From positions 1 to 64,000 of the forward strand of contig LNFC01000007.1 of the NCBI GenBank assembly GCA_001464545.1: DNA of 64,000 nucleotides, read 5' to 3'. Source of the stretch: Acidobacteria bacterium Ga0077551. GTDB lineage: Bacteria; Pseudomonadota; Alphaproteobacteria; Caulobacterales; Hyphomonadaceae. The notes under the pieces are model-generated. The model did not search any database. It saw nothing but the letters and a program-made list of their open reading frames with translations, and was not told where the DNA came from. The translations under genes were made by a program, and so were the position numbers. The stretch's first letter is position 1; each line of letters starts with the position of its first letter. Positions 1,854 through 21,948 of this stretch are shown piece by piece.

Positions 1854-1940
1854 ATGAGGTACACTTCTATAGTCGATGCAAAACCAAAGGAGTCAATTGA
1901 AGGCCTTTGCGGACGGCATCCTTCTATGATGTTATGCAAG

Positions 1941-1956: not shown

Positions 1957-2006
1957 TGCCGGGGGACAGGCAGCGTGAGCTGAGTTTGTGTGGGGACACG
2001 GCAGGC

Positions 2007-3731: not shown

Positions 3732-4939
3732 TGGCACGGTTTCGCTACCGCGCGTTCCAGGCAGATGGCCGTGTCGTCAGCGACGTGGTCAGTGCGATAT
3801 CGGAATCCGAGGCCGTTCGTGACCTGATGGGTCAGGGCTTGACGCCGTTCGAGATGACCGATGCGGGTTCGACCGCCGCGGCGAGACAAGGTAAGCCAGC
3901 CGGCAAGCAGCCGCCGCAAGTTCTGGCTGGATTCTGCCGCAACCTCGCTTCGATGCTCGCTGGCGGACTGCCGCTCGACGAGGCCCTGAAACTCCTCGCC
4001 GATGATCCGGAAGACAAACGTGTTTCGCGCCTGTCGAACGAATTGCGCAGCGGTGTTCTCAACGGCCAGTCTCTCGCGGATGCAATGGCGGGTCTGCGCA
4101 CGCCTCCTGCGGACTATGTCATCGGTCTGATCCGTGCGGGCGAAGAGGGCGGCTCCACGGTACCGGTCCTCAACCGGCTGGCAGACTCCATCGACAACGA
4201 ATTGCGCCTGACGGAAGCAGTGCGCGGGGCGCTGATTTATCCCGCAATCCTGCTGCTCACCGCAATCATCTCCATCTGCATCATCCTGCTCGTGGTTGCG
4301 CCAGCTCTCGAGCCGGTGCTGGAAACATCCGGCAATGAAACCCCGGCCGCGGCCGCCTGGCTGATGGCGGCCTCGCACGGATTGCGAGACACCTGGCCCT
4401 TGCTGACCATCTCGCCCCTCGTGATATGGCTGCTCGCCATGAGCTGGTCGCGGACCCCGGCCGGTCGCGGCTCGATGAGCGCGCTCGCCATGCGCCTCCC
4501 GGTCATCGGCCTTCTGATCCGGGACATGGAATCGGCGCGTTGCCTCACGTCTCTCTCTGCGCTTCTCGAAAACGGTGTCAGCCTTGTGCCGGCAATGGAA
4601 ATTGCCGGGCAGGGCGCGCGCAATCCGCTCGTGCGCAAAGCCCTGGACAGGATTGCAGATGAGGTGCGCGTCGGCGTCCGCCTCTCCGATGCCATCGCGA
4701 ATGACGGCTTCCTGCCGATGACGGCCTCCCAGCTTGCCGCGGTCGGCGAGCGCTCCGGCGACATGGCGAGCCAACTTGCGCAGGCCTCATCCATCCTTGA
4801 AAGCCGCAGCCGGCGCCGGATCGCGACCTTGACCACGCTTGCGGGCCCGGTGATGACCCTGGCGCTGGGCGTGCTGATCGGCGGCATTGTCCTGACGCTG
4901 CTCAGTGCGATCATGAGCGTCAACGATCTGGCGGTGTGA
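3731..4939 (+). CDS. gspF: Type II secretion inner-membrane platform protein GspF
   Basis: 402 aa, the normal GspF length. GspF is the polytopic core of the assembly platform and binds GspE and GspL. The sequence starts MARFRYRAFQADG, matching the family's opening, and has two repeats of the T2SS_F domain (about 65-190 and 265-390), each ending in hydrophobic helices, including a long one near residues 168-190 and one at the C-terminus. The start codon overlaps the gspE stop; the stop overlaps the gspH start. Confidence 0.95.
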   Translation: MARFRYRAFQADGRVVSDVVSAISESEAVRDLMGQGLTPFEMTDAGSTAAARQGKPAGKQPPQVLAGFCRNLASMLAGGLPLDEALKLLADDPEDKRVSRLSNELRSGVLNGQSLADAMAGLRTPPADYVIGLIRAGEEGGSTVPVLNRLADSIDNELRLTEAVRGALIYPAILLLTAIISICIILLVVAPALEPVLETSGNETPAAAAWLMAASHGLRDTWPLLTISPLVIWLLAMSWSRTPAGRGSMSALAMRLPVIGLLIRDMESARCLTSLSALLENGVSLVPAMEIAGQGARNPLVRKALDRIADEVRVGVRLSDAIANDGFLPMTASQLAAVGERSGDMASQLAQASSILESRSRRRIATLTTLAGPVMTLALGVLIGGIVLTLLSAIMSVNDLAV

Positions 4940-5388
4940 TCATGCCGCGCCCGCGCATTCCCGGTCAGGCCGGCTTCTCCCTTCTGGAACTGCTCGTCGC
5001 GCTGACGATCCTGGCGCTGGCCATGACCGTCGTATCGATCTCCGCCTCGCGCCGCAGCCCGTCCTTTGAGATCCAGCGCCTGTCGGGTGAAGCGGTCAGC
5101 CTGCTGCGTGAAGCGCGGCTCGCGGCCCAGTCCTCGGGCAGGGCGGTCCGGATCGTGTTCGACGCCGACGCGCGACAACTGAAGCGCGCGGGGACCGAGC
5201 CGATCACCATTCCGGAAGGCGTCAATGTAGACTTGGTATCTTCGGCTTCAGCAGGCCCATCGGCGATTATCTTTTTCCCGGATGGCTCTTCCTCGGGCGG
5301 CGAATTCACCCTCGAAGGCGCGGGCCGCAGGGAAAGAGTCACGGTCGACTGGCTGACCTCGCGCATCGAGCGGCAGGAACCGCGATGA
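4936..5388 (+). CDS. gspH: Minor pseudopilin GspH
   Basis: 150 aa. Class III signal sequence: a short basic leader, then G-FSLLELLVALTILAL with the conserved Glu at +5, which is the prepilin peptidase site and pseudopilus-packing helix. The GspH/FimT-like globular domain follows. Minor pseudopilins sit at or near the pseudopilus tip and are processed by GspO/PilD, which is not in the window. The GTG at 4936 overlaps the gspF stop by 4 bases; ATG 4942 is an alternative start. The major pseudopilin GspG, normally between F and H, is absent here. Confidence 0.88.
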   Translation: MIMPRPRIPGQAGFSLLELLVALTILALAMTVVSISASRRSPSFEIQRLSGEAVSLLREARLAAQSSGRAVRIVFDADARQLKRAGTEPITIPEGVNVDLVSSASAGPSAIIFFPDGSSSGGEFTLEGAGRRERVTVDWLTSRIERQEPR

Positions 5389-5744
5389 GCCAGCGCGGCT
5401 TCACCCTGATGGAAACACTGGTTGCGCTGGTGATCTTCAGCCTCGCCTGCATGGCCCTGCTGGAGCTTTATTCTGGGTCAGCCCGCGCAAAAGCCGCGCA
5501 CGACTCGATGATCGAGCGCACCGCCCGGGCCGAGGCACTGTTGCTGGAGATCGATCTGGCGCGCACGTTCGAGGCGTCCCGCAGCGGCGCCGATCCGGAT
5601 GGCACGATCTGGGAAGTGACGATGGTGCCGGTCGCCGCCGAGCTCGTGCGCGTCGACATAAAGGTCACCGACCGGGCCGGTCGCCTCGCGCACCTGCAGA
5701 CGATGCGCCTTCCGGCGGAACTGAGCATCGAGACAGCGCCATGA
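5385..5744 (+). CDS. gspI: Minor pseudopilin GspI
   Basis: 119 aa. It begins MSQRGFTLMETLVALVIFS, a textbook prepilin peptidase site (cleavage after Gly5, Glu at +5) and hydrophobic alpha1 helix. Short globular C-terminal region as in GspI. GspI nucleates the tip complex with GspJ and GspK. It overlaps gspH and gspJ by 4 bases each. Confidence 0.9.
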   Translation: MSQRGFTLMETLVALVIFSLACMALLELYSGSARAKAAHDSMIERTARAEALLLEIDLARTFEASRSGADPDGTIWEVTMVPVAAELVRVDIKVTDRAGRLAHLQTMRLPAELSIETAP

Positions 5745-6352
5745 CCCGGCGGCGGTCCTCTGAAGCGGGCTTCAGTCTCCTGGAAATGCTGGTGGGGCTT
5801 ACCCTGCTCGCCTTGATCTCGGTCGCCGTGACCCAATCGGTCCGCACCGGCCTTCGGCTCTGGCAAGCCGCAGAAGCCAATGACAGCGAAGCCGAGTGGC
5901 AGCAGACCGAGTGGCTCATCGAGCGCTGGCTGTCGCGCGCCCTTTCGCCGAAGGGATATGACCTCGATTCCAGGGTGATCTTCGAGGCGCGCCCAGACGG
6001 TGTCAGCTTTGTTGTGGACGGCCAGGTCGGCCGCAAGCCGGCGGGCTATTCCCGGCTCGGTCTTCTCGCGAAACCCAACCCGGTCTGCCCGGGCCGGTCG
6101 GATTTTGTCCTCACCTGGGAGGATGTGACCATGGCGTCGAATTTCGCCCCGGCGGCAGCAGACGAGCGTGTTCTGTTCGAATGCGCCGATACCATTTCGT
6201 TCGATTATGGCGGGCTCGCGGTTCCGGCCCCTGAGCAACTTCAGCCCGAATCATTTGCTTCGGACGGCGAGCTGCCCCGCATCATTCAGATCCGGCTGGT
6301 GGCGGGCGGTAAGCCTCGGGTTGTCTCAGCGCGGCTTCTGTATGCCCGGTAA
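5741..6352 (+). CDS. gspJ: Minor pseudopilin GspJ
   Basis: 203 aa. The N-terminus has a basic leader (MTRRRSSEA) followed by G-FSLLEMLVGLTLLAL, the prepilin cleavage site and helix. Length and the larger C-terminal beta domain fit GspJ. The tip partner GspK, which usually follows, is absent; the next gene on this strand is a multicopper oxidase 221 bases downstream. gspJ appears to end the rightward secretion operon. Confidence 0.88.
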   Translation: MTRRRSSEAGFSLLEMLVGLTLLALISVAVTQSVRTGLRLWQAAEANDSEAEWQQTEWLIERWLSRALSPKGYDLDSRVIFEARPDGVSFVVDGQVGRKPAGYSRLGLLAKPNPVCPGRSDFVLTWEDVTMASNFAPAAADERVLFECADTISFDYGGLAVPAPEQLQPESFASDGELPRIIQIRLVAGGKPRVVSARLLYAR

Positions 6353-6470: not shown

Positions 6471-6573
6471 TGGACGCAGCGTAATATCTGCCATATATGA
6501 ACGAGCGTGCTCGGATCGGGACAATCCGTGCACGGCCTATTTTTCATATAACGTCACTTTTTGGGAGGGGGAC

Positions 6574-9500
6574 GTGTTGGGTGGACTTACCAGGCTGGCC
6601 GTTGGGCTGGCTGCATGCGCAATAGGCGCATTCGCGAGCAACTTTGAGGCTCAGGCACAACTTCCGGTTTGCGGCAGGACGGTAAAGGCTGACGTTGTCG
6701 CCTTCGACCAGCCGTTGATGTTCAACCGGCTTGGCGCACAGAACGTCAACGGCATGATCTATGCCCTGCGCTCTGACGTCATCGACCGCTCCACGGGCAA
6801 GCCCGAGGCGGCAGGCGGAACCCTGACGCCGGGCAATGTCGGGCTGCGGCCTGACAAGCGCCCGCGCCCGATTGTCCTGCGCGTCCGCTCCGGCGACTGC
6901 CTGGAGGTCAATTTCACAAACCTTCTGAGCTCGCAGGCGAACCCCAACAACGCCATGCCGAGCATCATGACGATCAACGACCAGGTCGCTGAACGCCGTG
7001 CCGGCTTTACACCGCTCGGAATGAGCGCGCTGGATTCGGCGGGCGACACATCGTCGTATGTCGGCAAGGGTCCCAACACGCTCGCGGACGTTGGTCAGTC
7101 CAGGACATACCGCTTTTATGCAGACTCCGAGGGCTCCCACCTCGTGCTGTCGCATGCTGTGAGCTTTGGCGGCGAAGGAACCGGCGGGAACCTGGCGAAC
7201 GGTCTGTTCGGCGTAGTTCAGGTCGAACCAGTGGAGGCAAACTTCTACCGAAGCCAGGTAACCGAGGAGGACATGCGTCTTGCTTCAATCGGCACGACGC
7301 CTGGTGGCCATCCGATCATCAACTATGAGGCGCGCTATCCGAACCGCGCGCCGTGGACGCATGAAGGCAAGGGTGGCAAGCCAATCCTTAACATGCTGGA
7401 CGTTTCGGGATCGAGCATCAAGCTGGTTGCAAGCGATGTGACCGCGATCATCTCCGGGCCGAACCCGGATGGCTCGTTCCCGGCTTCGACCTATCCGCTT
7501 GAAGCGCGCGGCGCCACCAATCCGGCGTTGCCCAACCGGCTTGAGCCCTTCCGCGAGTTCATCGCGCTGTTCAACGACGAGACCGTTTCCAAGCAGGCTT
7601 TCCCCTTCTGGTATGAAGACCCGGTATTCTCTCACACGCTGCACGGCGTGGGCGACCACTTCATGATCAACCAGGGCGCTGCGGGAGCCGGCTCCGAAGT
7701 TATCGCTAACCGTCTTGGCGTTGGTCCGGCACATGACTGCCTGTCCTGTGCCTATGAGGAATTCTTTCTGACATCTTTCGCCATGGGCGACCCGGCTATG
7801 CTGGTTGATGTGCCGGCCAATGCGGGCCTCGAATTCTGCTCGCCGCAGCCTGGCGATCCCTTCTGCGAGCGCGATCCCAGCATCCGCGCGTCTTATGCCA
7901 AATATCCGGATGATCCGGCCAACGTCACGCACTCCTACGTCGGCGATTTCGTGAAGTTCCGGAACCTGCATGCAGGCCCGAAAGAGCATCACATCTTCCA
8001 TCTTCATAACCACCAGTGGTTGGCAAACCCGGACGACGACAACTCGAACTACATGGACGCGCAAGGCATTGGCCCTGGTGGTTCGTACACGTATGAAATC
8101 GCGTTCGGTGGGTCGGGCAACCGCAACAAGTCTGCGGGCGATGCCATCTTTCACTGCCACTATTACCCGCACTTTGCGCAAGGCATGTGGGCTCTCTGGC
8201 GCAACCACGACACGTTCGAAGCCGGCACGCAGCTCGATGTTGCAACCGGTTCTGACGGCTTCCACCGCGATGCCTTTGCGCTCGAGCGCGGCAAGCCAGC
8301 GGTTGGTGCGCGCGCCCTTCCGGACGGTGAAATTCTCGCCGGGACTCCGATTCCGGCGCTTGTGCCACTGCCAGGCAAACCGCTCGCGCCGATGCCGGGC
8401 CGCGTTTATGTCGCGTCGGTGGACAAGAACAGTGATGGCCAGCCGGAATCGAGCCAGGCCGTCATCGACCGTGCGGATACCGATCCGTCTCTCATCGACG
8501 TTCGCCCCGTTCTCGCGTCACTAAACCCGGCTGACCCCGACAACCAGCTGAACCCGACCGGACTGAAAAACCCCGGCTTTCCGTTCTGGATTGGCGGCAT
8601 GGAAGGCGCAGTCGGTCAGCGGGCTCCGTCACCTCCGCTCGACATGGCGCCGAATCCGGCCAATCCGGGATCGGGTGGCTGGGACGGCGGTCTGCCGCGC
8701 CACTTCCTGGATGGCTACGCCGTCGGCGGCATTTCCGAAGACCACCAGACGCGGTTCTCGTTCGAGAAACATATTGAGAAGGCTAAGGCTCAGTTCATCA
8801 GCGAGTATGGAAGTGATGTCGAGCGAGCGGCGATGTCGTTCCACGCAACGCGCTTCCATCCGACTTTCCGCCAACTGCCGGATGGAACGGTCCTGCCGGC
8901 CTCCTATCGCACCAACGGCGCATTGCCACAGCCCGGCTCGCCCTTCTTTGAGCCATGCATGGATGATGAAGGCGACGTGTTCAACACAGGCGTTGCAGGA
9001 CAGTTCTTCTCTGCCGCCGGCAATGGCCTTGCCAACACCTTCACGGCTGCCTTCGGCGCGGACAATCCACGCGTCTATAAGGGCGCGAACATCCAGCTCG
9101 ATGTCGTCTTCAACAAGCTCGGCGATCACTATCCGCAGCAGCGTATCATCACGCTCTGGGAAGACGTTGCCCCGACGCTTGCCAAGACCCGTGCCCCCGA
9201 GCCGTTCGTTTTCCGTCTGAACTCGTACGATTGTGCGATGTACTACCAGACCAACCTCGTGCCTGAATTCTACATGGTCGACGACTACCAGGTGACCACG
9301 CCGACCGACATCATCGGTCAGCATATCCACCTGCCGAAATGGGACCTCGTTGCGGCTGATGGCGCCGCCAACGGCTGGAACTATGAAGACGGTGTTTTCG
9401 GGGCTGAAACGGTCCGTAACCGGATTGAGGCAATCAACCGCTACACCCTTGAAGAAGGTACCGGCGACGCGTTGTTGACGCCGGCTGCGCACCCCTTCTT

Positions 9501-12273
9501 CGGGGCTGGTCCGAACGGCAAGTATCTCGGCGCCCGCACGATGATCCAGCGCTGGTTCGTTGACCCGCTGCATAACATTGAGGGCCGTGACCGCGGTCTG
9601 GGCGTGACGTTCACGCACGACCACTTCGGTCCGTCCACCCACCAGCAGGTCGGGCTTTACGCCACATTGCTCGTGAACCCCGCCGGCTCGGTCTGGAAGC
9701 ACAATGAGACCGGCGAGCAGATGTATACGCGCGCTGATGGCGGCCCGACTTCATGGCAAGCCATGATCCTCGCGGGCGACATCGACGGCGACGGCAAGGA
9801 CGACTCCTACCGCGAGTTCTATCTCGCTGCGCAGGACTTCGCGCACGCCTATAATGCGGGTGCGTGGACAGGCGTCGACGCGGCGGGCGAGCCTGCGCCG
9901 CCAACGGAAGACTCCTTCCGTTACTCACTCAATCCGTCGGTGCGCCAGTCTGCGCCTTTCCCGGATACTGTGCGGCTTTACTCAATCTGCCCAGGCGGCG
10001 TTCCGCGGCCTTGTCCGGAAGCGGTCTCTGCAGCCGACATCGGCACCTTCGTCATCAACTACCGCAACGAACCGCTCGGTTACCGTGTATATGATCCGAA
10101 CAAGGTCGGACCGGATGGCAAGAAGGGTTCTCAGGCCGACGGCCTCGCCGGTGACCTGTCTTACGCGCTGCAGACGCGCACGGACCGCAAAATCCCGCAG
10201 CTCAACACCCCGCTGGGATCGACGCCTTATCCGGCGCTGACGAAGGACATCCGCAACGGTGACCCCTTCACGCCGGTCCTCCGCTCGAACGCAGGTGACA
10301 TCGTCCGTATCAAGATTATGGCCGGTGCGCATGAACACGAACACACAGCGACCGTGAATGGCGTGAAGTGGCTCAACGGCGGCGCTGGATTCGGAACAGC
10401 TGACGAGTCCGGCTGGCGCAGCGCCCTGCAGGTGGGCCTGTCAGAAAAGGCCTCGTTTGCGACATCGATCTTCGGTGACGTGGACCAGGCGGTGAACCAG
10501 ACCGATCACCTCTATTCATGGGACCGTTCGCAGGAAGGGCTCTGGACCGGAACATGGGGCGTGCTGCGTACCTATGAGCAGAGCCGGACTGACCTTGCAT
10601 CGCTGCCGAACAACCCGCGCGGCGTGCCTATCACGATCACTAACCGTTCGCAGTTCAACGGCGTCTGCCCGAAAACGGCACCCATTCGCGCCTATGACCT
10701 CTCGGCAGTCTCGGTTAACAGCGTGATCAAGTCACCGCTCACGACTTCGATCATTCCGTCGGACACCTCTGCGTTCATGCACGTGGGCGGCCCGCTCGAT
10801 CCGAACGGCGGCACCCTGCGGTATAACAGCCGCGCTACGCAGCTATCGAACGGCGAACGGGGGCCGCTGCACGATCCGACGGCACTGGTCTATGTCCCGA
10901 CGGCGGATCTTCGCACCAACATCGTCACGCCGGCGGACTCAGCTGCTTGTTCGGCCCGCCTGGGCGGCGTGCGCAATCCGCTCTGTCCGGCGCGGCTTCC
11001 GAACACCTACAAGTTCGAGCCGGTCAGCGTGCGTGCTGCAGCCGGTGAGTGTATCGAAGTCACGGTTCGCAACCGCTTGCCCGAAATGGTGCCGGACCTC
11101 GCGAGCTATGTGATGCAACACTACACAGTCATCCGTGACCGCTGGGATCCGCGTGGGTACACCACATTCAATAACAACCTGATCCGGGCGTCGAGCCATG
11201 TCGGCTTCAACACCCAAAAGGTTGAGTATGATGTGTCGCGTGACGACGGCATGAACGTCGGCCTGAACCCGGTCCAGACCGTTGCCCCTGGCAGCGTACG
11301 GACCTACCGGTTCTATGCCGGCGACCTGGAACTCGGCCCCCGCTCTGCTTCGGGTGATGGCAAGTCAGGTGCCTTCGGCGCCCTTGCAGGCAACTCGTTC
11401 CCGCTTATCGCGACCCCCGTGGAGTACGGCGCAATGCCGATCTTCCCGGCGGACACGATCAAGCAAGGCCAGAAAGGCCTGCTGGGCGTGATGACCATCC
11501 TGCCCGCAGGATCGACCTTCGCGCTTGATGCCGGCACGACGGCCCAGGCAACGGTCACGGTGCCAGGGGGCCGCGTCTTCCGCGACTTCTCGATGGTCTT
11601 CCAGAAATCCGTCAACATGCGCTACCGCGATGGTACGCCGGTGGAGAACATCTCGGGCGAAGGCCCGGGTGTGCCGGAAGACGCGCATGATGCAGGCGGG
11701 GCTGCGATTAACTTTGCCGCCGAGCCACTGTGGTTCCGGTTCGGCTTCCCTGCCGGCGCTGACTGGGGCTATGGCGACACTGGCGGCGGCGCACCCGAGC
11801 CGGAAGAGCCTGATCCGTTCGGTGCGGAGCCAGGCGTACTTCCGGCACCAACCGGTCCAGGCCTTGCGTCGATTTCCAATGCCTTCCGTGCGTATTCCAA
11901 CATCATGACGGGTGGCAACGATCCGCAAACGCCGGTCTACAAGGCACGTCCCGGACAGGAGATGCGGTTCCGCATCGCCATTCCGGCTGGCTACGCCCGT
12001 AACACGACCCTGACCATCCTCGGCCATAACTGGAGTGAGGAACCCTTCAGGTCCGTGAACGGCCCTTCCGATGTGATGGGCGCGCACTGGTCGCATCGTT
12101 TCCGGACGACGACGGACAATATCGTCACGGGTAACAGCTGGAACATCCTGACCAAAGCAGGCGGCACGATGTCGGTGCCGGGTGACTATCTCTACCGCGA
12201 TGTGGCATCCTTCGGGAACCTGAACGGACTTTGGGGTGTCGTCAGGGTCGAAGAACCGGCCCCTACGCCTTGA
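6574..12273 (+). CDS. Giant secreted multicopper oxidase (MnxG-like size and context)
   Basis: 1899 aa with an N-terminal Sec signal ending near AQAQ (about residue 29). Copper motifs are visible. The HxxHxH set is H473, H476, H478, in a His-rich stretch 472-480. A type 1 site follows: HCH at 527-529 (Cys528), then H533 and M538. Further HxH pairs are HIH 917-919 and HDH 1015-1017, plus an HEHEH cluster 1253-1257. Six copies of a domain-end strand motif (G-L-[FWY]-like) near 210, 537, 1027, 1322, 1635 and 1885 indicate a multi-cupredoxin chain. Such giants (about 1900 aa) include MnxG Mn(II) oxidase of Pseudomonas putida. The substrate cannot be read from sequence; Mn(II), Fe(II) or Cu(I) are candidates. 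Start: GTG 6574 after GGGAGGGG. Confidence 0.85.
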   Translation: MLGGLTRLAVGLAACAIGAFASNFEAQAQLPVCGRTVKADVVAFDQPLMFNRLGAQNVNGMIYALRSDVIDRSTGKPEAAGGTLTPGNVGLRPDKRPRPIVLRVRSGDCLEVNFTNLLSSQANPNNAMPSIMTINDQVAERRAGFTPLGMSALDSAGDTSSYVGKGPNTLADVGQSRTYRFYADSEGSHLVLSHAVSFGGEGTGGNLANGLFGVVQVEPVEANFYRSQVTEEDMRLASIGTTPGGHPIINYEARYPNRAPWTHEGKGGKPILNMLDVSGSSIKLVASDVTAIISGPNPDGSFPASTYPLEARGATNPALPNRLEPFREFIALFNDETVSKQAFPFWYEDPVFSHTLHGVGDHFMINQGAAGAGSEVIANRLGVGPAHDCLSCAYEEFFLTSFAMGDPAMLVDVPANAGLEFCSPQPGDPFCERDPSIRASYAKYPDDPANVTHSYVGDFVKFRNLHAGPKEHHIFHLHNHQWLANPDDDNSNYMDAQGIGPGGSYTYEIAFGGSGNRNKSAGDAIFHCHYYPHFAQGMWALWRNHDTFEAGTQLDVATGSDGFHRDAFALERGKPAVGARALPDGEILAGTPIPALVPLPGKPLAPMPGRVYVASVDKNSDGQPESSQAVIDRADTDPSLIDVRPVLASLNPADPDNQLNPTGLKNPGFPFWIGGMEGAVGQRAPSPPLDMAPNPANPGSGGWDGGLPRHFLDGYAVGGISEDHQTRFSFEKHIEKAKAQFISEYGSDVERAAMSFHATRFHPTFRQLPDGTVLPASYRTNGALPQPGSPFFEPCMDDEGDVFNTGVAGQFFSAAGNGLANTFTAAFGADNPRVYKGANIQLDVVFNKLGDHYPQQRIITLWEDVAPTLAKTRAPEPFVFRLNSYDCAMYYQTNLVPEFYMVDDYQVTTPTDIIGQHIHLPKWDLVAADGAANGWNYEDGVFGAETVRNRIEAINRYTLEEGTGDALLTPAAHPFFGAGPNGKYLGARTMIQRWFVDPLHNIEGRDRGLGVTFTHDHFGPSTHQQVGLYATLLVNPAGSVWKHNETGEQMYTRADGGPTSWQAMILAGDIDGDGKDDSYREFYLAAQDFAHAYNAGAWTGVDAAGEPAPPTEDSFRYSLNPSVRQSAPFPDTVRLYSICPGGVPRPCPEAVSAADIGTFVINYRNEPLGYRVYDPNKVGPDGKKGSQADGLAGDLSYALQTRTDRKIPQLNTPLGSTPYPALTKDIRNGDPFTPVLRSNAGDIVRIKIMAGAHEHEHTATVNGVKWLNGGAGFGTADESGWRSALQVGLSEKASFATSIFGDVDQAVNQTDHLYSWDRSQEGLWTGTWGVLRTYEQSRTDLASLPNNPRGVPITITNRSQFNGVCPKTAPIRAYDLSAVSVNSVIKSPLTTSIIPSDTSAFMHVGGPLDPNGGTLRYNSRATQLSNGERGPLHDPTALVYVPTADLRTNIVTPADSAACSARLGGVRNPLCPARLPNTYKFEPVSVRAAAGECIEVTVRNRLPEMVPDLASYVMQHYTVIRDRWDPRGYTTFNNNLIRASSHVGFNTQKVEYDVSRDDGMNVGLNPVQTVAPGSVRTYRFYAGDLELGPRSASGDGKSGAFGALAGNSFPLIATPVEYGAMPIFPADTIKQGQKGLLGVMTILPAGSTFALDAGTTAQATVTVPGGRVFRDFSMVFQKSVNMRYRDGTPVENISGEGPGVPEDAHDAGGAAINFAAEPLWFRFGFPAGADWGYGDTGGGAPEPEEPDPFGAEPGVLPAPTGPGLASISNAFRAYSNIMTGGNDPQTPVYKARPGQEMRFRIAIPAGYARNTTLTILGHNWSEEPFRSVNGPSDVMGAHWSHRFRTTTDNIVTGNSWNILTKAGGTMSVPGDYLYRDVASFGNLNGLWGVVRVEEPAPTP

Positions 12274-12283
12274 TCTGATGCTG

Positions 12284-12314
12284 TCCGGGTGGGCACGATA
12301 CTTGCTCACCCGGA
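12284..12314 (+). other. Stable hairpin between the oxidase and beta-propeller genes
   Basis: Twelve-base arms (12284-12295 and 12303-12314) pair with a single G-T wobble around a 7-base loop. No T-run follows, so it is more likely an mRNA processing or stability element, or a leaky terminator that lowers expression of the downstream chaperone genes, than a full terminator. Confidence 0.5.
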
Positions 12315-12347
12315 TTCCCATACATTGGAACAGCCGGGTACCAGGAA

Positions 12348-14294
12348 ATGACGCCATTCTGGAAATCGAACAGAGTTCGCGAACTGGCCCCGATCATCGC
12401 GATCTCGGCCGGCGTGGTCCTGTTTGTCGCCTTCCTGTTCTTTCGCTCAGATTCCTCTGTCGTCACCGGCGAATCGGTTACCCGCGAAGGCTTGAAAATC
12501 GACTTTTCGATCACGTCCGTGATCGAACCGGACAAACCGCTCAAAGCCGGCGAGATTGCCAAAGTCAGCCTTAAATTTACGGACTCCACGACCGGCAAGC
12601 CCGTCACCGGCCTGCTTCCGGCGGCCTGGATCGATCCACTTCGGGACGGCACGAAATCCGAACCGGAGGCCTGCAAGCGCTCGGCCGCGACCTATCTCAG
12701 CGGTTTCGTCGGAATCCGGCCGATGATTGACCTCAACAGTTACTATATTGTTGTGCTTAACGCCGACCCGTCGATCGCCGTCATCGACCCGATTATCGGC
12801 GTGCGCGGTATTACCAAGCTGCTGACGCAGGTCCTCCTGCCGGGTCCCCCGGAAGACTGGGCCCGGTCAGCAGATGAAAAGCAGGTCTATGTGGCCATGT
12901 CATCGGTCAACGCGGTCAGCTTTGTTGACCTCGACACGTTCCGAATTGGAAAGACGGTCAAGGTTGGAGAGCGGCCCTCGCGGATAATGGTTCAGCCGGA
13001 CGGTCGTTACGCCTGGGTCGGAACGACCGGCGCCAAACCCGGCGTTACCGTTGTCGATACCGAAAAGCAGGAAGTCAAAGCCCACATCGAAACGGGCAAG
13101 GGACATCATGAACTCGTGGTGACGTCGGACAACCGGTTTGCGCTGGTCAGCAACCGCGATGACCGCACTGTCAGTTTGATCAATGTGCGCCAACTGAAGA
13201 AGACCAAGGACTTCGAGCTGAAAGGTATTCCAATATCGCTTGCCTACTCCGCGCTTTCGCAAGCTGCGTATGTGGCCGATGGCGAAACCGGCGAAGTGCT
13301 GGTGCTGGACCCGGCATCCGGCAAGGTACGCGCCACAATCCCGCTAGAGCCTGGACTTGGCCCGATGCGGATCACGCCTGACGGTCGATACGGATTTGTC
13401 GTGAACCCCGCGAAGGACGCCGTCTTTGTCTTCGATACTGCCAACAATACCCAGGTTCACAGGATTGATATCAAGGGTGAGCCCTTCCAGATCGTGTTTT
13501 CGCGCGCTTATGGGTTCGTCCGTAGCCTGTCGAACAACACTGTCTCGATGATCCGCCTCGCCGATATCGGCGGCACCGGCCAAGTTACGGTATCGCACTT
13601 TGAAGCGGGTGACCGGCCCCCGAAGGATTCGCCTTTTCTTCTGCCTTCAGACCTCTTCGCGACGGCCGTGACCGAAGCTTCGACCATCGTTGTAAGCCCC
13701 GGCGACGCTAACGTTTTCTACTATATGGAAGGCATGAACGCCCCGATGGGCAGCTTCGGCAACTATGGTCACCGGCCGCTCTCGGCGATCGTCGCCGACC
13801 GAACCATCAAGGAAGCGGCGCCTGGCGAATACATTTCGACGGTCAAGATTCCATCCGACGGAAACTACCAGATGATCCTTACGCTTGATTCGCCGCAGCT
13901 CATCGAATGCTTTGACTTTGCCGCAGCCATAAACCCGAATCTGGCAAGGGACGAGCTCCCGCTGCGCATTGCCTATGAAACGCGCGGCGGTACACTGACC
14001 CCGACCGGGCAGGAAGCGAAAATCCGCTTTACTTTGAATGATACGGCGAAAAACGGTGCCCCGTACTCCGGAGATGACGTCACGGTACTGACGTTCCGCG
14101 CACCTGGTCAGGATCGCACGGAGCATAAGGTGAAGTCCCTCGGCGACGGCAAATTTGAGTTTGCGTTCACGCCGAACAACTCCGGCGCCTATTACATCTA
14201 CCCCTCGGTGCGCAGCCAGGGACTAGACTACTCCAAGCTCGCCTTCATCACGATTATTGTCCAGGATCCACCGAGCGGGGGAGGTGTCCAGTGA
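12348..14294 (+). CDS. Membrane-anchored YncE-like beta-propeller protein of the copper operon
   Basis: 648 aa. One N-terminal membrane helix (about residues 13-32) anchors a large periplasmic region. An Ig-like stretch (about 45-95) precedes a seven-bladed YncE/cytochrome-D1-like propeller (about 120-420) with repeated V-x-D-x-D and DGRYA-type blade signatures. A C-terminal Ig-like domain (about 540-640) follows. Between them is a Met-, Gly- and Tyr-rich loop (YYMEGMNAPMGSFGNYGH) that could bind copper. Gene order suggests a partner of the multicopper oxidase, as scaffold, electron carrier or maturation factor; none is proven. The GTG of the next gene overlaps its stop by 4 bases. Confidence 0.75.
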   Translation: MTPFWKSNRVRELAPIIAISAGVVLFVAFLFFRSDSSVVTGESVTREGLKIDFSITSVIEPDKPLKAGEIAKVSLKFTDSTTGKPVTGLLPAAWIDPLRDGTKSEPEACKRSAATYLSGFVGIRPMIDLNSYYIVVLNADPSIAVIDPIIGVRGITKLLTQVLLPGPPEDWARSADEKQVYVAMSSVNAVSFVDLDTFRIGKTVKVGERPSRIMVQPDGRYAWVGTTGAKPGVTVVDTEKQEVKAHIETGKGHHELVVTSDNRFALVSNRDDRTVSLINVRQLKKTKDFELKGIPISLAYSALSQAAYVADGETGEVLVLDPASGKVRATIPLEPGLGPMRITPDGRYGFVVNPAKDAVFVFDTANNTQVHRIDIKGEPFQIVFSRAYGFVRSLSNNTVSMIRLADIGGTGQVTVSHFEAGDRPPKDSPFLLPSDLFATAVTEASTIVVSPGDANVFYYMEGMNAPMGSFGNYGHRPLSAIVADRTIKEAAPGEYISTVKIPSDGNYQMILTLDSPQLIECFDFAAAINPNLARDELPLRIAYETRGGTLTPTGQEAKIRFTLNDTAKNGAPYSGDDVTVLTFRAPGQDRTEHKVKSLGDGKFEFAFTPNNSGAYYIYPSVRSQGLDYSKLAFITIIVQDPPSGGGVQ

Positions 14295-14965
14295 CGCGGG
14301 ACATCGAATACACCCGCACCAGGTTCTTCAGCGGTTGCGCCATAGCGGCGATGCTCCTTTTGGCGGCTTGCGGCAACGGGAAGGCGACCGGTGAGCACGA
14401 ACATGCCGAAGGCCACGTCCATAAGGAGTCGGCCGGCGTTCCTGCGTCCGGGGCTGAGCAACAGGCCCTGGTCGTGCTGAGCGATGCGCCAATGCTCGAT
14501 CAGGCCGGCGCCGCGCGGCAGCTGAAATCGGATGTGATCGGTTCACGGATCGTCGTTGTCGATTTCATTTTCACCAGCTGCCAGACGATCTGCCCGGTTA
14601 CTACAGCCCTGCTGGCACAGGCAAAGCGCGACCTTGCCGACATTCCTGCTGAAGAACTCGTGTTTGTTTCCCTCAGCGTCGATTCCCGCGTAGACACGCC
14701 GGAACGCCTCGCTGCCTTTGCGGCTGCTCACAATGCCGACTGGACATTTCTGACGGGAGAAAAGCCTGTAATGGATGAGGCGCTGACCTGGCTCAACGCT
14801 TACGCAACCAATCCCGAGAACCACGCAGCCATGATTCTGATAGGGGATGCCTCCGCCGAAGAATTCTCGCGTATCTACGGCATGCCGGATCCGGAATTTG
14901 TGGAAAGCCGTGTCCGCGAACTTGTCGCGGCGCGCGAAACGCAAACCACCCAGCATAGCCACTGA
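14291..14965 (+). CDS. SCO1/SenC-family copper chaperone, lipoprotein
   Basis: 224 aa. Lipobox LLAAC with the lipidated Cys at 27, then a short His-rich segment (residues 35-44, EHEHAEGHVH). The thioredoxin-like SCO fold carries the copper-binding Cys pair CQTIC (C97, C101) and the distal His (H178). SCO proteins deliver copper or reduce cysteines in copper enzymes; here the nearby copper enzyme is the multicopper oxidase rather than a cytochrome oxidase. GTG start overlaps the previous stop (GTGA). Confidence 0.88.
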   Translation: MTRDIEYTRTRFFSGCAIAAMLLLAACGNGKATGEHEHAEGHVHKESAGVPASGAEQQALVVLSDAPMLDQAGAARQLKSDVIGSRIVVVDFIFTSCQTICPVTTALLAQAKRDLADIPAEELVFVSLSVDSRVDTPERLAAFAAAHNADWTFLTGEKPVMDEALTWLNAYATNPENHAAMILIGDASAEEFSRIYGMPDPEFVESRVRELVAARETQTTQHSH

Positions 14966-14976
14966 GGAATTCAAAA

Positions 14977-15615
14977 ATGCCAGTGCATCCTTTCCGCTCC
15001 CTGTCCGTCATCGCATTTGCTGGACTTTTCGGGGCCGTTTCCGGACCCGCCGCGCTCGCACACGGCGCCGGCCACAAGCCGGGCGACAAGGTGGTGACGC
15101 GCGACATTTCCGCCTCTGATACCGAAGACAAGGCCCGCGAGTATTTCACAGACACCGTCCTGATCAGCCATACCGGCGAGAAGCTGAAATTCTATTCGGA
15201 TATTCTCGCAGGGCGCACAGTCGTCATCAGCTTCATGTTCACGACTTGCGAAGATGCGTGTCCATTGATCAATGCTTCCCTCCAGCGGGTGCAGGAGCGT
15301 CTCAAAGACCGGATGGGCAAGGACATCTTCTTTGTTTCGATCACCGTTGATCCAAAAGTCGATACCGCAGCAGTGATGGCAGATTATCGCAAGCAGTTCA
15401 AAGCGGGTCCCGGATGGCTTTATGTTACTGGCACCGAAAAGAATATCGAGGTGGTCGGCAACAAAATGGGGCAGGTGTTCGAAAAGGAAGCCCACCTTAC
15501 GGCGCTTCTCGTCGGCAATACCAAGACGGCCCGCTGGCGCAAAATACCGGCAAATCTCAGCGATACCGTGATCGCCGCACAGGTCAAAGACATTGCCGAC
15601 GGCATTCACGATTAA
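14977..15615 (+). CDS. SCO1/SenC-family copper chaperone, soluble periplasmic
   Basis: 212 aa. It has a cleavable Sec signal (ending near ALA, residue 28) rather than a lipobox, and the mature N-terminus has a short HGAGH motif. The SCO fold shows CEDAC (C91, C95) and distal His H173, so the copper site is complete. It is the second SCO gene in tandem, 11 bases after the first. The two differ in sequence and anchoring, suggesting separate steps, for example thiol reduction and copper transfer. Confidence 0.87.
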   Translation: MPVHPFRSLSVIAFAGLFGAVSGPAALAHGAGHKPGDKVVTRDISASDTEDKAREYFTDTVLISHTGEKLKFYSDILAGRTVVISFMFTTCEDACPLINASLQRVQERLKDRMGKDIFFVSITVDPKVDTAAVMADYRKQFKAGPGWLYVTGTEKNIEVVGNKMGQVFEKEAHLTALLVGNTKTARWRKIPANLSDTVIAAQVKDIADGIHD

Positions 15616-16948
15616 GGCTCTTTCGCTCCTTGCGCTCATGCTTTGCACGCTGGCGCTGCCGGCCTGCGCAGACTTGACCGCTTCTGAGGAACGCGGACGT
15701 GCCATATACTTCGGCGAAAAGGGCTCCGCTCTCGACTCGGCAGAAGTCCAGATCGGCGACCTTTCGACAAAGCTCCCGGCACGGACATTTCCCTGTGCCT
15801 CCTGCCATGGCCGCACCGGTGCCGGAAAAGCCGAGCGCGGGGCACAACCCAGCCAGATCAGCCGCGATGCGCTGACGCGCCCCTACACCGTAAAAGAGGC
15901 AACTGGGCGAAAGCGCCCGCCCTATACCTCCTCCTCCTTCCGAAATGCCGTCCGCGCCGGCAAGGATTCCGGCGGCAATGCCCTATCGGAGGCGATGCCG
16001 CGCTTTGATCTGACCGACAAACAGCTCGCTGACGTCTGGGCTTTTCTGGCCGTGGTGGCGGAAGCCAGTGATCCGGGTATCACGGACGATGCGCTCACCG
16101 TCGGGATCGTACTGGACCCGGCCAACCCGGCCAGTCAGGCGCAGCAGAAACTGCTCGGCGTACTGGCCGGCGACATCGACAAGCTCGGCGGCGTGCACGG
16201 ACGAAAGCTCACTTTGCGCATTGTGTCGCCGAAGAACGCCGGTGCGGAGACCGCCAACGTGTTTGCACTCGTCTTCCCGCAAAGCGTTCCGCCTGCCGGC
16301 TTTGACAGTACCGTGCCAGTCATTTCCGTATTGCCGGCTTCTGCACCATCGGCCGGCGCATTTGCGCTCGTGGCCAGCGAAGCAGACCAGGCTTCTGCCC
16401 TGAAGCGGTTCGCGACTGAGGAGTGGGGCGTCGTCAGCGTGAAGGACGGCTGCGCCGCGAAGAAGGGCGAAACGGTCCTGCTTGGCTCCGCAAAATGCCT
16501 CGACAAGGCAACGGCCGCCAAAAGGGTGCTCCTCACCCAGACGGTGTTCTCCAGCATTCCGCCGGCCAGCCGAAAGGTTCTGCCTGCCGAAACTTACGTC
16601 GCCTTTGCCGCGCCGCTAAGCCGTGTGGCGCGCAATGCCCAGTCGGCTTTTGCCCAGACGCGCGCCCGCGCCAGGAACGATAAGTCTTCCATCCTTGCGG
16701 AAGCCGATGCCTATTCGGCTGCAGCTTTGCTGATCGAAGCGCTCATGCGCACGGGCAGGGATGTTTCGCGCGAAGGTGTTATCGATACCCTGGAGGCGGT
16801 GCGCAGCTTCGAGGGCGGCATGACGCCGCCTTTGACCTTCGGCCCCAACAGGCATGTTGGTTCCCGCGGCGCCGAAATTGTCCGCTATGACGCCCTTGCG
16901 GGCACATTTGCGCTTTCGGGAATTTGGACAGACCCGGACATCCGCTAG
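15593..16948 (+). CDS. Cytochrome c fused to a periplasmic binding-protein-like domain
   Basis: 451 aa from a TTG at 15593 that overlaps the SCO gene by 23 bases; no better start gives a full signal sequence. An LPAC lipobox (Cys25) predicts a lipoprotein. A class I cytochrome c domain (about 30-155) has the haem motif CASCH at 68-72 and a likely axial Met in the segment EAMPRF. From about 163 the sequence resembles type I periplasmic ligand-binding proteins of the LivK/Peripla_BP_6 kind (VGIVLDPANP, then GGVHGRKL). The fusion could sense or bind a ligand and couple this to electron transfer from the oxidase. This function is inferred. Confidence 0.75.
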   Translation: MPTAFTIKALSLLALMLCTLALPACADLTASEERGRAIYFGEKGSALDSAEVQIGDLSTKLPARTFPCASCHGRTGAGKAERGAQPSQISRDALTRPYTVKEATGRKRPPYTSSSFRNAVRAGKDSGGNALSEAMPRFDLTDKQLADVWAFLAVVAEASDPGITDDALTVGIVLDPANPASQAQQKLLGVLAGDIDKLGGVHGRKLTLRIVSPKNAGAETANVFALVFPQSVPPAGFDSTVPVISVLPASAPSAGAFALVASEADQASALKRFATEEWGVVSVKDGCAAKKGETVLLGSAKCLDKATAAKRVLLTQTVFSSIPPASRKVLPAETYVAFAAPLSRVARNAQSAFAQTRARARNDKSSILAEADAYSAAALLIEALMRTGRDVSREGVIDTLEAVRSFEGGMTPPLTFGPNRHVGSRGAEIVRYDALAGTFALSGIWTDPDIR

Positions 16949-17136
16949 CCGAAGACCAGAATATTCGCCTCACATGCGATTACTTGATGCTATTAAGGTT
17001 AAATATGTACTTGATAGACGTCTGATGGTTGACGCAAAATCACACTTGGCGTTTAACTTGCATATAGATGTGTGGGGACGCATCAGCCATTGCAATCAGG
17101 CGCAAGCTGATGTCCTCCATGACGAGGACGCACATT
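16949..17136 (+). other. AT-rich intergenic region before the curli operon
   Basis: 188 bases, clearly richer in A and T than the flanking genes, with TTAAGGTTAA near 16993-17002. It contains the sigma-54-like site described separately. A sigma-70-like pair (TTGACG 17029-17034, 17-base gap, TTTAAC 17052-17057) overlaps that site. No terminator for the copper operon is visible. Confidence 0.4.
17046..17062 (+). promoter_or_regulatory. Sigma-54-type promoter candidate for the curli operon
   Basis: TTGGCGTTTAACTTGCA: -24 element YTGGC (the last two positions of TGGCAC differ) and a perfect -12 element TTGCA, with GG-N10-GC spacing. Predicted transcription start is near 17073, so the upstream ATG at 17068 would not be in the message and the csgF start at 17137 is supported. 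Confidence 0.45.
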
Positions 17137-17727
17137 ATGGTGGGACTAAAATCAATCGCGCGCGCAGCTGCTTCAGTTGCCGCGCTCAGCTGGATCGGCC
17201 TAGCGGCGTCCGCTCAGGAACTGGTGTACACGCCGGTCAACCCGTCCTTTGGCGGTGACAGCTTCAACTCGGCGCATCTACTTGGCATTGCGAATGCCCA
17301 GAACGATTACAAGGATCCTGAAAGCACGACCGGCGGCAATACGCAGGTCGATCAGTTCCTGCGCCAGTTGCAGAGCCGCCTGCTGTCTTCACTCGCGGCG
17401 CAGGTCAATGACGCAATATTCGGTGAGAACCCGCAGGATAGCGGGACGATAACCTTCGGCGATCAGACGATCACCTTCGTGCGCCTGCTCGACTCCGTCG
17501 CACTTACGATCACCGATTCGACAACCGGCGCAGTGACGGAGATCTCCATCCCTCTCCTCGGCCAGACGAGTCAGGGCGACCCGGCTGGGCAGATCGCCCT
17601 TCTTCTGGGTGGAAGCGGCGGCGACCTTTCTGCGCCTGCGTCGGACTCGCAAAGCGAAGGCGGATCGTTGGACGACCTCAGCGGGCTGATCACCGGCGAA
17701 GGTGATCTGGTTCCGGGGGGTGGTTGA
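17137..17727 (+). CDS. csgF: Curli assembly factor CsgF
   Basis: 196 aa. Sec signal ending ASAQ, then a mature N-terminus ELVYTPVNPSFGGDSFNSA, which matches the CsgF segment that plugs into the CsgG pore (N-P-x-FGG-x-x-x-x). A helical region and a beta C-terminal region follow. CsgF docks at the outer face of CsgG and guides subunit nucleation. The protein is longer than the E. coli form (138 aa), with a Gly/Ser/Asp-rich tail. Start: ATG 17137 has GAGGA at 17124-17128 and begins the signal peptide. csgG starts one base after the stop. Confidence 0.9.
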   Translation: MVGLKSIARAAASVAALSWIGLAASAQELVYTPVNPSFGGDSFNSAHLLGIANAQNDYKDPESTTGGNTQVDQFLRQLQSRLLSSLAAQVNDAIFGENPQDSGTITFGDQTITFVRLLDSVALTITDSTTGAVTEISIPLLGQTSQGDPAGQIALLLGGSGGDLSAPASDSQSEGGSLDDLSGLITGEGDLVPGGG

Positions 17728-17728
17728 C

Positions 17729-18961
17729 ATGTTGCGCGCTCTCAAACGCCTGGTGCTTGGCGCTTCCCTCCTTCCACTGATGGTCGGCGCATGCGCCACC
17801 ACTCATGATGATCATCCCGGCTTTATCCAGCAGCCGGCGGTTTCCGAAGTTCGTACCGAAACGCAGTCTCGACTTCGCGCGCTTCCTGCGCCTGTCGAAA
17901 AGGCGGCGGTCGCAGTATACTCCTTTGAAGATCAGACCGGTCAGTTCAAACCGTCCGAAGGCGTACAAACGCTTTCGCGCGCGGTAACCCAAGGCTCGAC
18001 ATCGGTTCTTCTCAAGGCCCTCCAGGACGCTGGAGATCGCAGCTGGTTCACGGTGATTGAACGCGAAAATCTCGACAACCTCCTGAAAGAACGCCAGATT
18101 ATCCGTGAGATGCGCAAGCAGTATCTTGGCGAAGAAGATCTCAATGAAGCGGCCCTTCCGCCGCTGCTCTTTGCAGGCATCATTCTCGAAGGCGGCATAA
18201 TTGGCTATGACACCAACACACTGACCGGCGGTGCAGGCGCACGCTTCCTCGGTATCGGCGCGAAAACGGACTACCGCGAAGACAAGGTCACCGTTTACCT
18301 GCGCGCCGTCAGCGTGAAATCGGGCGAGGTAATCACGTCCGTCGTCGCCTCGAAGAAAATCGCATCCATCGGCGTTGCGGCCAACGCGTTCCGGTATGTC
18401 AGCTTCAAGGAACTCCTCGAAGTCGACACCGGTATCACGACCAACGAGCCGGACCTCCTCGCATTGCGCCAGGCAACGGAGAAGGCGGTTGAGCTCCTGA
18501 TCATGGAAGGCGCCGCGCTGGGCGTCTGGCAGTTCCAGGACCAGCTCGCCGGGGCAGCGCTCCTCGAACAGTATGTAGCCGAGCGCGACGGTTTTATTCC
18601 GGATCCGGATATCAGCTTTGCCCAACAGGATCAGGCTGCGCCGGTCCGCAAGTCTGCAGCGGTCAGGAGCGAGGCGCGCGCCGCAGAATCCGAGCGTGAA
18701 GACAAACCAGCCATCGATGAAGTGAAGGTCAGCGAGGCTGCTCCTCCGGCTGAGAATACTGGGGTCGATGCTCCGCAGGCGGCGTTTCCCGTTGCCGCAG
18801 TAAGTGAAGCTTCCCTTCAGCTTGTACCGGCGTCCTATTCTGTATCTTATGAGTTGAATCAGGTTGCGCAGAGCGAATTGCAGCGGTTCTCTTGGACTGA
18901 CTATGAAATGTTGCGCGTCATGAAAATGGCTTCAGCCGACTACACCATGGCACGCCAATAA
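17729..18961 (+). CDS. csgG: Curli secretion channel CsgG with long C-terminal extension
   Basis: 410 aa. Lipobox LMVGAC (Cys22) anchors it in the outer membrane. Residues about 55-280 carry the CsgG core: VAVYSFEDQTGQFK, SWFTVIERENLDNLLKER and the GGIIGYD segment, forming the nonameric export pore for curlins. E. coli CsgG is 277 aa; here about 120 extra residues (290-410) follow, rich in Ala, Glu, Pro and Ser and ending in an aromatic-containing segment. The extension has no clear relative that can be named by eye. ATG 17729 is chosen over 17702 because of the GGGGGGTGG ribosome site and the signal peptide. Confidence 0.93.
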   Translation: MLRALKRLVLGASLLPLMVGACATTHDDHPGFIQQPAVSEVRTETQSRLRALPAPVEKAAVAVYSFEDQTGQFKPSEGVQTLSRAVTQGSTSVLLKALQDAGDRSWFTVIERENLDNLLKERQIIREMRKQYLGEEDLNEAALPPLLFAGIILEGGIIGYDTNTLTGGAGARFLGIGAKTDYREDKVTVYLRAVSVKSGEVITSVVASKKIASIGVAANAFRYVSFKELLEVDTGITTNEPDLLALRQATEKAVELLIMEGAALGVWQFQDQLAGAALLEQYVAERDGFIPDPDISFAQQDQAAPVRKSAAVRSEARAAESEREDKPAIDEVKVSEAAPPAENTGVDAPQAAFPVAAVSEASLQLVPASYSVSYELNQVAQSELQRFSWTDYEMLRVMKMASADYTMARQ

Positions 18962-18990
18962 AAGAAGGGTGCCTTGCGCGCCAGTCATAC

Positions 18991-19013
18991 CAGCCCCGGG
19001 GACACGGGCTGGA
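18991..19013 (+). other. Hairpin between csgG and the first curlin gene
   Basis: Arms CCAGCCC and GGGCTGG around a 9-base loop; a second small hairpin (GCCTG/CAGGC, 19031-19044) follows. Neither has a T-run. They may protect the abundant subunit message from 5' decay or partly terminate the csgFG message, a common way to set subunit and channel ratios. Confidence 0.4.
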
Positions 19014-19072
19014 ACTATCTTGGGGGCTCTGCCTGTCGGCAGGCCGGGACGCATTACAGGAGAAGTATCAAC

Positions 19073-20350: not shown

Positions 20351-20383
20351 GCGGGCCCTTTGGCCTTCCTCAGGGAGAGGATT

Positions 20384-21451: not shown

Positions 21452-21458
21452 TCGCCAG

Positions 21459-21947
21459 ATGAAGCCGTATCGCTTCATGCAAGTGGGGGCGGCCTTGATG
21501 GTCGCCCTCATTTTTGTCGGATCCGCTGGCGCGCAGGTGTCCGGTGAAGATGCATTGCTTGGCAGTCTCGACCTCAGATCCTCGCTGAGCAGCAGCGATC
21601 TCTATTCCGGGGGGGGCTCTGCAAGCTCGGAAGAAGCGGGCGAGGAGAATTCGGCCCTCATCCGACAGACCGGGCAAAGCAATATCGTTGAGGTCACGCA
21701 GACAGGCTCCGCCTACGGAGCGTGGGCCCGTGTCGCGCAGTTTGGCGCAGACAACACAGTCGATGTCACCCAATGCGCCTGCGGCAACGTCGTCGACGTG
21801 ATCCAGGACGGCAGCGAAAATCTTTCTGAAATCAGCCAGACCGGCGCGGGGAACGTGTTTGTCCACCGGCAATATGGCGACGCCCTCGGCCTTTCGGTGT
21901 CGCAGTATGGCGGCGCGCAGATATCCATCACGCAGACAGGACCCTGA
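21459..21947 (+). CDS. Third, short curlin-repeat protein with a Cys pair
   Basis: 162 aa. Sec signal ending SAGAQ (about residue 26), a Ser/Gly-rich stretch, then about five curlin repeats (LIRQTGQSNIVEVTQ, then others) ending ISITQTGP. Size and repeat number match E. coli CsgA/CsgB. One repeat carries a CAC motif (TQCACGNVVDVIQ); cysteine is unusual in curlins and could form an intra-strand or inter-subunit disulphide. It starts 7 bases after the previous stop. Confidence 0.83.
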   Translation: MKPYRFMQVGAALMVALIFVGSAGAQVSGEDALLGSLDLRSSLSSSDLYSGGGSASSEEAGEENSALIRQTGQSNIVEVTQTGSAYGAWARVAQFGADNTVDVTQCACGNVVDVIQDGSENLSEISQTGAGNVFVHRQYGDALGLSVSQYGGAQISITQTGP

Positions 21948-21948
21948 C

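Follow-up and report, generated by a model that had tools for sequence, protein, structure and literature searches.

Bacterial manganese oxidation drives much of the manganese cycle. The closest described genetic system is the mnxG operon of Pseudomonas putida GB-1 (PputGB1_2447 onward), for which Table 4 of PMC11409713 lists a beta-propeller protein, two SCO proteins, a cytochrome c/ABC binding-protein fusion and SurA. Manganese oxidation by P. putida has also been reported to need a Gsp-related pathway and the cytochrome c maturation (ccm) genes (PMC3056050 section 11), and the maturation and exit of giant oxidases, as well as the need for the ccm genes, are regarded as unsettled (partly the same section, partly general knowledge). 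Here we describe a homologous gene cluster in Acidobacteria bacterium Ga0077551 (GCA_001464545.1), a member of the Hyphomonadaceae with a genome of 3.08 Mb in 25 contigs. The window, that is, the whole stretch of DNA analysed, comprises the first 64 kb of contig 7, starting at base 1 of LNFC01000007.1, and carries type II secretion system (T2SS) genes, an mnxG-like oxidase operon and curli genes in that order. We read the locus as a probable module for Mn(II) oxidation outside the cell, akin to that of Pseudomonas mnxG; to its core, a manganese oxidase that would be exported by the linked T2SS, we give a probability of about 0.7. This reading is based on homology, ligand conservation, gene order and co-occurrence; the module is real and well conserved, and its function in this organism is presumed from these data.

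The oxidase gene (6574..12273, plus strand) begins with GTG 221 bases after the end of gspJ at 6352 and encodes 1,899 residues with a Sec-type leader recognised by eye, as the first-pass annotation had proposed; the coordinates and order of this gene and of the four genes downstream, all on the plus strand, were confirmed. The protein covers positions 1-1894 of the 1894 in the NCBIfam MnxG profile NF041487 (E=0, 2216 bits) and is 48-50% identical to Pseudomonas MnxG, and the closest MnxG matches of this genome are mostly Hyphomonas records. Judged by sequence, it is an MnxG-like protein, of the same length and homologous throughout, that falls outside the curated equivalog. A Pfam scan of the oxidase returned no domain at E<=0.001, and MnxG was its sole NCBIfam match at that threshold, on which grounds a CopA-type or short-laccase identity was rejected; the first-pass annotation had allowed for a place among CopA-type enzymes, and no CopA family match was seen. 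Twelve His, Cys and Met positions (H473, H476, H478; H527, C528, H529, H533, M538; H917, H919; H1015, H1017) are identical in 72/72 aligned relatives, including four distant ones and the remote G241, and presumably serve as the type 1 and trinuclear copper ligands (G-numbers denote sampled genomes, L-numbers the loci compared and C17 contig 17 of the genome described here). The copper motifs follow the order L3-L4-L1-L2, in what we take to be the customary naming. The partial loci L035, L069 and L072 were excluded from the MnxG alignments; a first pass of 67 rows lacked L061 and L067, both of which are in the 72-row version. The solved MnxG structure PDB 9bxa, presumably of Bacillus origin, matches at 7.4e-70 in an alignment that spans the copper-motif regions. 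A chance open reading frame (ORF) or an assembly artefact was ruled out by full-length relatives with the same neighbours in several independent records. The nearest of these records, L002, is titled Candidatus Sulfopaludibacter (Acidobacteriota) and its cluster shares 84-97% protein identity with the window; it is probably a mis-binned contig of a metagenome-assembled genome and not a case of transfer to Acidobacteria. A remote giant multicopper oxidase of ~1916 residues, with all 12 copper ligand positions kept, occurs in G241, another alphaproteobacterium (L151:10563-16310).

The four genes that follow on the same strand were described in the first-pass annotation as a propeller, two SCO chaperones and a cytochrome c fusion, with which both the Pfam matches (propeller/YtkA, SCO1-SenC twice, cytochrome c) and the coordinates agree. 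The first (12348..14294) encodes a YVTN beta-propeller with a C-terminal YtkA-like domain (PF21783, PF13115) and an N-terminal membrane anchor recognised by eye. Its predicted fold (predicted local distance difference test score, pLDDT, 81.8) has the YVTN propeller 1l0q as its best PDB match (1.7e-22) and contains further beta structure; the model also matches the propellers of nitrous oxide reductase, hydrazine synthase and NirF, by which no cofactor is assigned. The matching stretch for the propeller in G032 (L137:6352-8163, minus strand) contains one in-frame stop codon, reflecting either a broken gene or a sequence error. The two SCO1/SenC copper chaperones (14291..14965, PF02630 1.2e-16; 14977..15615, PF02630 2.2e-18) both retain the CxxxC motif, as CQTIC and CEDAC, respectively. 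The last gene (15593..16948) encodes a cytochrome c (PF00034 4.6e-5), with CASCH retained, fused to a periplasmic domain that is, according to the fold prediction (pLDDT 82.7; PDB matches 4n03 at 2.3e-10 and 4gnr at 2.5e-9), a binding domain of the LivJ/LivK type. As an operon this set is not new, since it has already been published for P. putida GB-1 (PMC11409713 Table 4).

The gsp genes of the window belong to a second T2SS of this genome. In a sample of 105 Hyphomonadaceae genomes, 10 of them with MnxG, GspF of some type occurs in 98, and the usual type is the higher-scoring one (395-475 bits for most), compared with 239-306 bits for the mnx-linked GspF of the 10 carriers. In the genome described here, a usual-type GspF and its GspE are encoded side by side on C17, and the idea that the linked T2SS is the only one was rejected on account of this separate pair. 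GspL of the linked system is found in 16/105 genomes, namely in 10/10 MnxG carriers and 6/95 others (Fisher 2.8e-10, uncorrected for ancestry). Among the six GspL-positive genomes without MnxG, G042 matches at E 2.8e-4 only and the other five are g10 genomes; in G026, the linked-system GspL and mnxG lie on separate contigs. Within the window, components E, F, H, I, L and M are recognised by profile and J by its leader motif. The contig ends at gspM (T2SSM_b; 95..676, minus strand; PF10741 1.1e-14), which is preceded by gspL with a PilN-like C-terminal domain (673..1812, minus strand; PF05137 1.4e-8). On the plus strand follow the gspE ATPase gene (1812..3731; TIGR02533 3.8e-152, 507 bits, under the cut-off of 630), whose listed start at 1812 overlaps gspL and whose true start is probably further in, gspF (3731..4939; TIGR02120 2.5e-81, below cut-off), the minor pseudopilin genes gspH (4936..5388; NF047827 3.1e-15 and TIGR01708 2.1e-9, below cut-offs) and gspI (5385..5744; TIGR01707 4.8e-6, below cut-off), and a gspJ-like minor pseudopilin gene (5741..6352; pilin leader motif TIGR02532 3e-4, weak ComGF match) that is named by its position. 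The genes gspD, gspK, gspG and gspC are cut off because the window begins at contig base 1; D, K and G together with a prepilin peptidase are present in the relative G057, where GspC is a weak profile match. In G057, a gene for a secreted-looking protein of ~385 residues with no Pfam match (L149:3160-4302, minus strand) lies past the prepilin peptidase gene of the mnx-linked system, and a similar secreted-looking protein of ~385 residues is encoded near the corresponding cluster end in G028 (L150:8175-9347, plus strand); it is possible that this protein is a further cargo.

The same association holds in Pseudomonas, and the linkage of oxidase and secretion genes is thus not a peculiarity of this genome, contrary to what the first-pass annotation might suggest. 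Among 149 Pseudomonas genomes, 47 encode MnxG, with 48 mnxG copies, and GspE is found at E<=1e-150 in 56. An mnx-type GspE (75-100% identity) is present in 48 of these, comprising all 47/47 MnxG carriers and 1/102 others (G514), and it lies within 8.3 kb of 44/48 mnxG copies; the four exceptions are G627 and G518, in which the genes are split over contigs, G595, in which 185 kb separate them, and the second mnxG copy in G580. The survey of oxidase-secretion co-occurrence that the first-pass annotation had called for therefore gives a very strong association in two bacterial families (10/10 vs 6/95; 47/47 vs 1/102). We also compared 59 Pseudomonadaceae mnxG loci, 54 of them with at least 9.5 kb of downstream sequence, by tblastn (E<=1e-4) with the window proteins. 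In 46/54 loci, mnxG is followed by the propeller, SCO, SCO and CytX, and then by GspE 6.1-8.6 kb after mnxG. A second kind of Pseudomonas MnxG locus (L027, L034, L037, L043, L060; mnxG at 10001) contains the propeller only, with no SCO, fusion or GspE match in 9.5 kb, and isolate PS910 holds both kinds (L028, L034). Strain WCS358 has been reported to possess two T2SSs, one Xcp-like and the other Xcm (PMC4509608 section 13). Its mnx-linked GspE (L051) shares 78% identity with the one from P. putida 31753, and we infer from that report and this identity that the Pseudomonas mnx-linked system is Xcm.

The run of genes on the plus strand extends beyond 16948 into curli genes, which the first-pass annotation had overlooked and which form part of the conserved linkage. 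These are csgF (17068..17727, start approximate; PF10614 3.9e-33), csgG for the curli secretion channel (17702..18961; PF03783 7.3e-57) and three ORFs with curlin repeats, two of which encode CsgA/CsgB-like proteins (18974..20350, NF007506 2.8e-36 and NF007470 3e-34, both below cut-off; 20360..21451, NF007506 5.8e-23, below cut-off); the listed start of the third (21192..21947; NF007506 5.8e-11, below cut-off) overlaps the previous gene and its true start is probably further in. No csgE was found among the ORFs scanned at 17068-22530, the only interval in which it was looked for. In P. putida 31753, the sole Pseudomonas genome annotated for this purpose, csgE, csgF and csgG follow the T2SS pseudopilin genes on the same strand. 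CsgG lies within 16.5 kb of 43/48 Pseudomonas mnxG copies and is found at E<=1e-30 in 46/47 MnxG carriers vs 3/102 non-carriers. The proximity of the three gene sets in most of the Pseudomonas carriers examined suggests that they work jointly outside the cell. In the Hyphomonadaceae, some CsgG match at E<=1e-10 occurs in 66/105 genomes, and curli genes are therefore common in this family also without MnxG; CsgG scores of more than 170 bits, a line drawn after the list was seen, are reached in 8/10 carriers vs 13/95 others. The csgG gene lies 5-6 kb downstream of mnxG on the same strand in 6/10 carriers and on the opposite strand in two, 12 kb away in G032 and 23 kb away in G026, and in G061 and G031 mnxG is at a contig end.

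How the clusters of the two families are related was addressed with trees of MnxG and GspE. In a tree of 25 chosen MnxG rows made by a quick method, 8 Hyphomonadaceae-type rows (including L002) and 13 Pseudomonadaceae rows form sister clades apart from four distant relatives. Among 385 sampled genomes of the class, a full-length match was found in the genome described here only, with three others fragmentary or remote, and among 398 sampled genomes of the phylum in this genome plus one remote match, with no other full-length carrier, Pseudomonas included; as the phylum sample lacks even Pseudomonas carriers, it shows no more than an overall rarity of carriers. A transfer of mnxG between the two families, in either direction, is likely. 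The GspE tree, from which one long row (L111) of an earlier 35-row version was dropped, places 6 Pseudomonadaceae mnx-linked rows in one fully supported clade, and 6 Hyphomonadaceae mnx-linked rows cluster with two MnxG-free g10 systems. The mnxG operon, the T2SS and the curli genes may have been assembled independently in each family by repeated recruitment instead of being transferred as one cluster, an explanation that is compatible with the Mn(II)-oxidation module and to which we give somewhat less than even odds. It agrees with the gene order, which is gsp-mnx-csg in Hyphomonadaceae vs mnx-gsp-csg in Pseudomonas, with the difference in secretin domain content (tetratricopeptide repeat, TPR, and STN domains in P. 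putida; GspD N0 in G057) and with a support of just 61/82 for the union of both mnx-linked GspE groups. On the other hand, the best tree does join the two groups, if weakly, and a tree that groups the Hyphomonadaceae sequences with the other type of GspE is 2.62 log-likelihood units worse, an alternative that is not rejected (approximately unbiased test, p-AU 0.122).

Several observations weigh against an extracellular Mn(II)-oxidation module. The NF041487 equivalog cut-off of 3100 bits is not reached by the window oxidase, nor by any of the 10 Hyphomonadaceae carriers, vs 47/47 Pseudomonas carriers. There is no room for surA between the end of the fusion gene (16948) and csgF (17068), and it was not sought elsewhere. 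Using what we take to be the sigma-54 consensus, 8 of the 59 Pseudomonadaceae loci and 5 Hyphomonas loci (the window, L002, L003, L004, L045) were scanned, with L005, L006, L035, G028 and G032 left out. A sigma-54-like site with 0-2 mismatches lies upstream of 8/8 tested Pseudomonas mnxG genes, and none was found at <=2 mismatches in the 5 tested Hyphomonas gaps, which are shorter regions; the L002 gap holds one site at 3 mismatches, for an expectation of 0.06 hits at <=3 mismatches per shuffled window gap. The scan lends no support to MnxR-type control of these Hyphomonas loci. Together with the Hyphomonas isolates cited in PMC9861301 as reported to oxidise iron, the low score and the missing sites leave some room for an oxidase that acts mainly on Fe(II), Cu(I) or an organic compound, with manganese oxidation lost or incidental in the Hyphomonadaceae. 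We consider this unlikely, as the copper ligand set and the operon partners are retained and the protein resembles both Pseudomonas MnxG and the solved MnxG.

The remaining points concern the tie between oxidase and secretion system. The co-occurrence counts ignore shared ancestry, and in 8/54 Pseudomonadaceae loci neither SCO nor CytX nor GspE was matched within 9.5 kb at the tblastn threshold given above; the four of these that entered the tree (L027, L037, L054, L060) group as a single MnxG clade. The remaining 8 Pseudomonas genomes with GspE, at 51-53% identity, are MnxG-free, as are the g10 genomes, which hold a related T2SS. After gspJ of such a T2SS, the g10 locus L134 (14029-15756) encodes a GMC oxidoreductase (Pfam), followed by further flavoprotein-like ORFs, and L132 (g10, 3067-4929) carries a GMC oxidoreductase-like ORF recognised by eye; this oxidoreductase is possibly a different cargo. 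In L131, the third locus examined beyond gspJ (L133 and L135 were left aside), two-component-like ORFs follow instead. The related T2SS can therefore occupy another setting. It is conceivable that the adjoining T2SS is a neighbour of mnxG by history, through a shared island, and that MnxG leaves via the other T2SS or stays in the periplasm. The MnxG-free related T2SS of five g10 genomes (by GspL) and of a sixth, G099 (by GspF score range), the presence of another GspF type in most genomes of the family and the distance between mnxG and T2SS in the Pseudomonas genome G595 speak for such a history. The second T2SS is nevertheless kept in all 47 Pseudomonas and all 10 Hyphomonadaceae carriers sampled, in spite of differing gene orders, and we rate a purely historical neighbourhood as improbable, marginally more so than a different substrate.

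The upstream regions and GspE provide leads on regulation. A dyad, CGGAT-N7-ATCCG, identified in the aligned upstream regions at 6512..6528 (plus strand), is a candidate operator of mnxG. It is kept with <=1 mismatch in the window, L003, L004 and L045 and not kept in the close relative L002. A search of six genomes at <=2 mismatches gave 16 sites vs 3 for the reversed control pattern. Exact dyads were found only upstream of mnxG (G000, G060, G061), where 4/6 genomes have an exact or 1-mismatch site; G057 has 1-mismatch dyads upstream of mnxG and 3.6 kb past the mnxG end, all other sites have 2 mismatches, and no dyad at <=2 mismatches lies upstream of mnxG in G050 and G028. Scans for sigma-70 promoters and terminators gave no excess over shuffles. 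The N-terminal c-di-GMP/MshE-type motif of GspE (within 1812..3731, plus strand) scores above the model cut-off in the window (NF053729, 40.6 bits, cut-off 38); the P. putida GspE has no such listing and a sub-threshold MshEN match (22.4 vs 23.1 bits). Given the biofilm link reported for Pseudomonas in PMC9765421, this motif is a weak lead.

We hypothesize that, in the Mn(II)-oxidation module, MnxG crosses the inner membrane via Sec, as its leader indicates, and that the two SCO proteins load copper onto it in the periplasm, perhaps aided by the propeller-YtkA protein. The folded enzyme would then be exported by the linked second T2SS, as suggested by the linkage and by the Gsp-related need published for P. 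putida, and outside the cell it would oxidise Mn(II) to Mn(III/IV) with O2, in line with its homology and with the intactness of its copper sites. A putative periplasmic redox or sensing partner is the cytochrome c/binding-protein fusion. In what is the least certain step, the neighbouring curli genes may supply an amyloid matrix that holds enzyme and oxide. Of the dedicated export proposed in the first-pass annotation, the tie of a second T2SS to MnxG is borne out, and export itself is deduced. The annotation had also taken it as known that MnxG of P. putida needs the type II pathway; section 11 of PMC3056050 does tie a Gsp-related pathway to 'the manganese-oxidizing factor', without naming MnxG there. 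More speculatively, and on balance we would bet against it, MnxG, a cargo-specific T2SS and curli could constitute a conserved three-part 'mineralising matrix' system, in which oxidase and amyloid scaffold are exported together, the fusion is the c-type cytochrome behind the need of P. putida for cytochrome c maturation, and the T2SS was perhaps recruited independently in both families.

The core operon has already been described in Pseudomonas; its occurrence in the Hyphomonadaceae, its association with a second T2SS in both families and its linkage to curli genes go beyond what the consulted literature showed. In the portions of the literature consulted, including that of PMC3056050, no link between mnxG and curli was found, nor in those portions the adjacency of mnxG and T2SS, a statistical tie to a second T2SS or MnxG in Hyphomonas, any of which may be in print elsewhere. 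A linkage kept in two distant families points to specific partners of the oxidase: the linked T2SS, both SCO proteins, the propeller, the fusion of cytochrome c and binding protein, and the curli system. The Hyphomonadaceae copy adds a further system for study, one in whose tested gaps no site for the usual regulator turned up.

Compared with the known systems, the locus resembles the mnxG operon of P. putida GB-1 in the identical order of mnxG, YVTN propeller, SCO, SCO and cytochrome c/binding-protein fusion. It differs in a MnxG of only about half identical residues, in its T2SS, which lies upstream here and downstream in Pseudomonas, in having csgF instead of SurA 119 bases past the fusion gene, and in the dyad that some Hyphomonas loci have where a sigma-54-like site was not found. 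With 9bxa, the oxidase shares homology in several stretches containing the copper motifs, of which the H1015/H1017 stretch is weak on its own, whereas the solved protein has 1,227 residues vs 1,899 here and an Ala aligned to H533. The T2SS resembles the system that we take to be Xcm in P. putida GB-1/KT2440 in being a second T2SS beside mnxG, but differs from it in the secretin domains named above. Finally, csgF, csgG and curlin repeats are shared with the curli (type VIII; csgEFG, csgAB) system, from which the locus departs in its longer curlin ORFs and in the linkage of these genes to mnxG.

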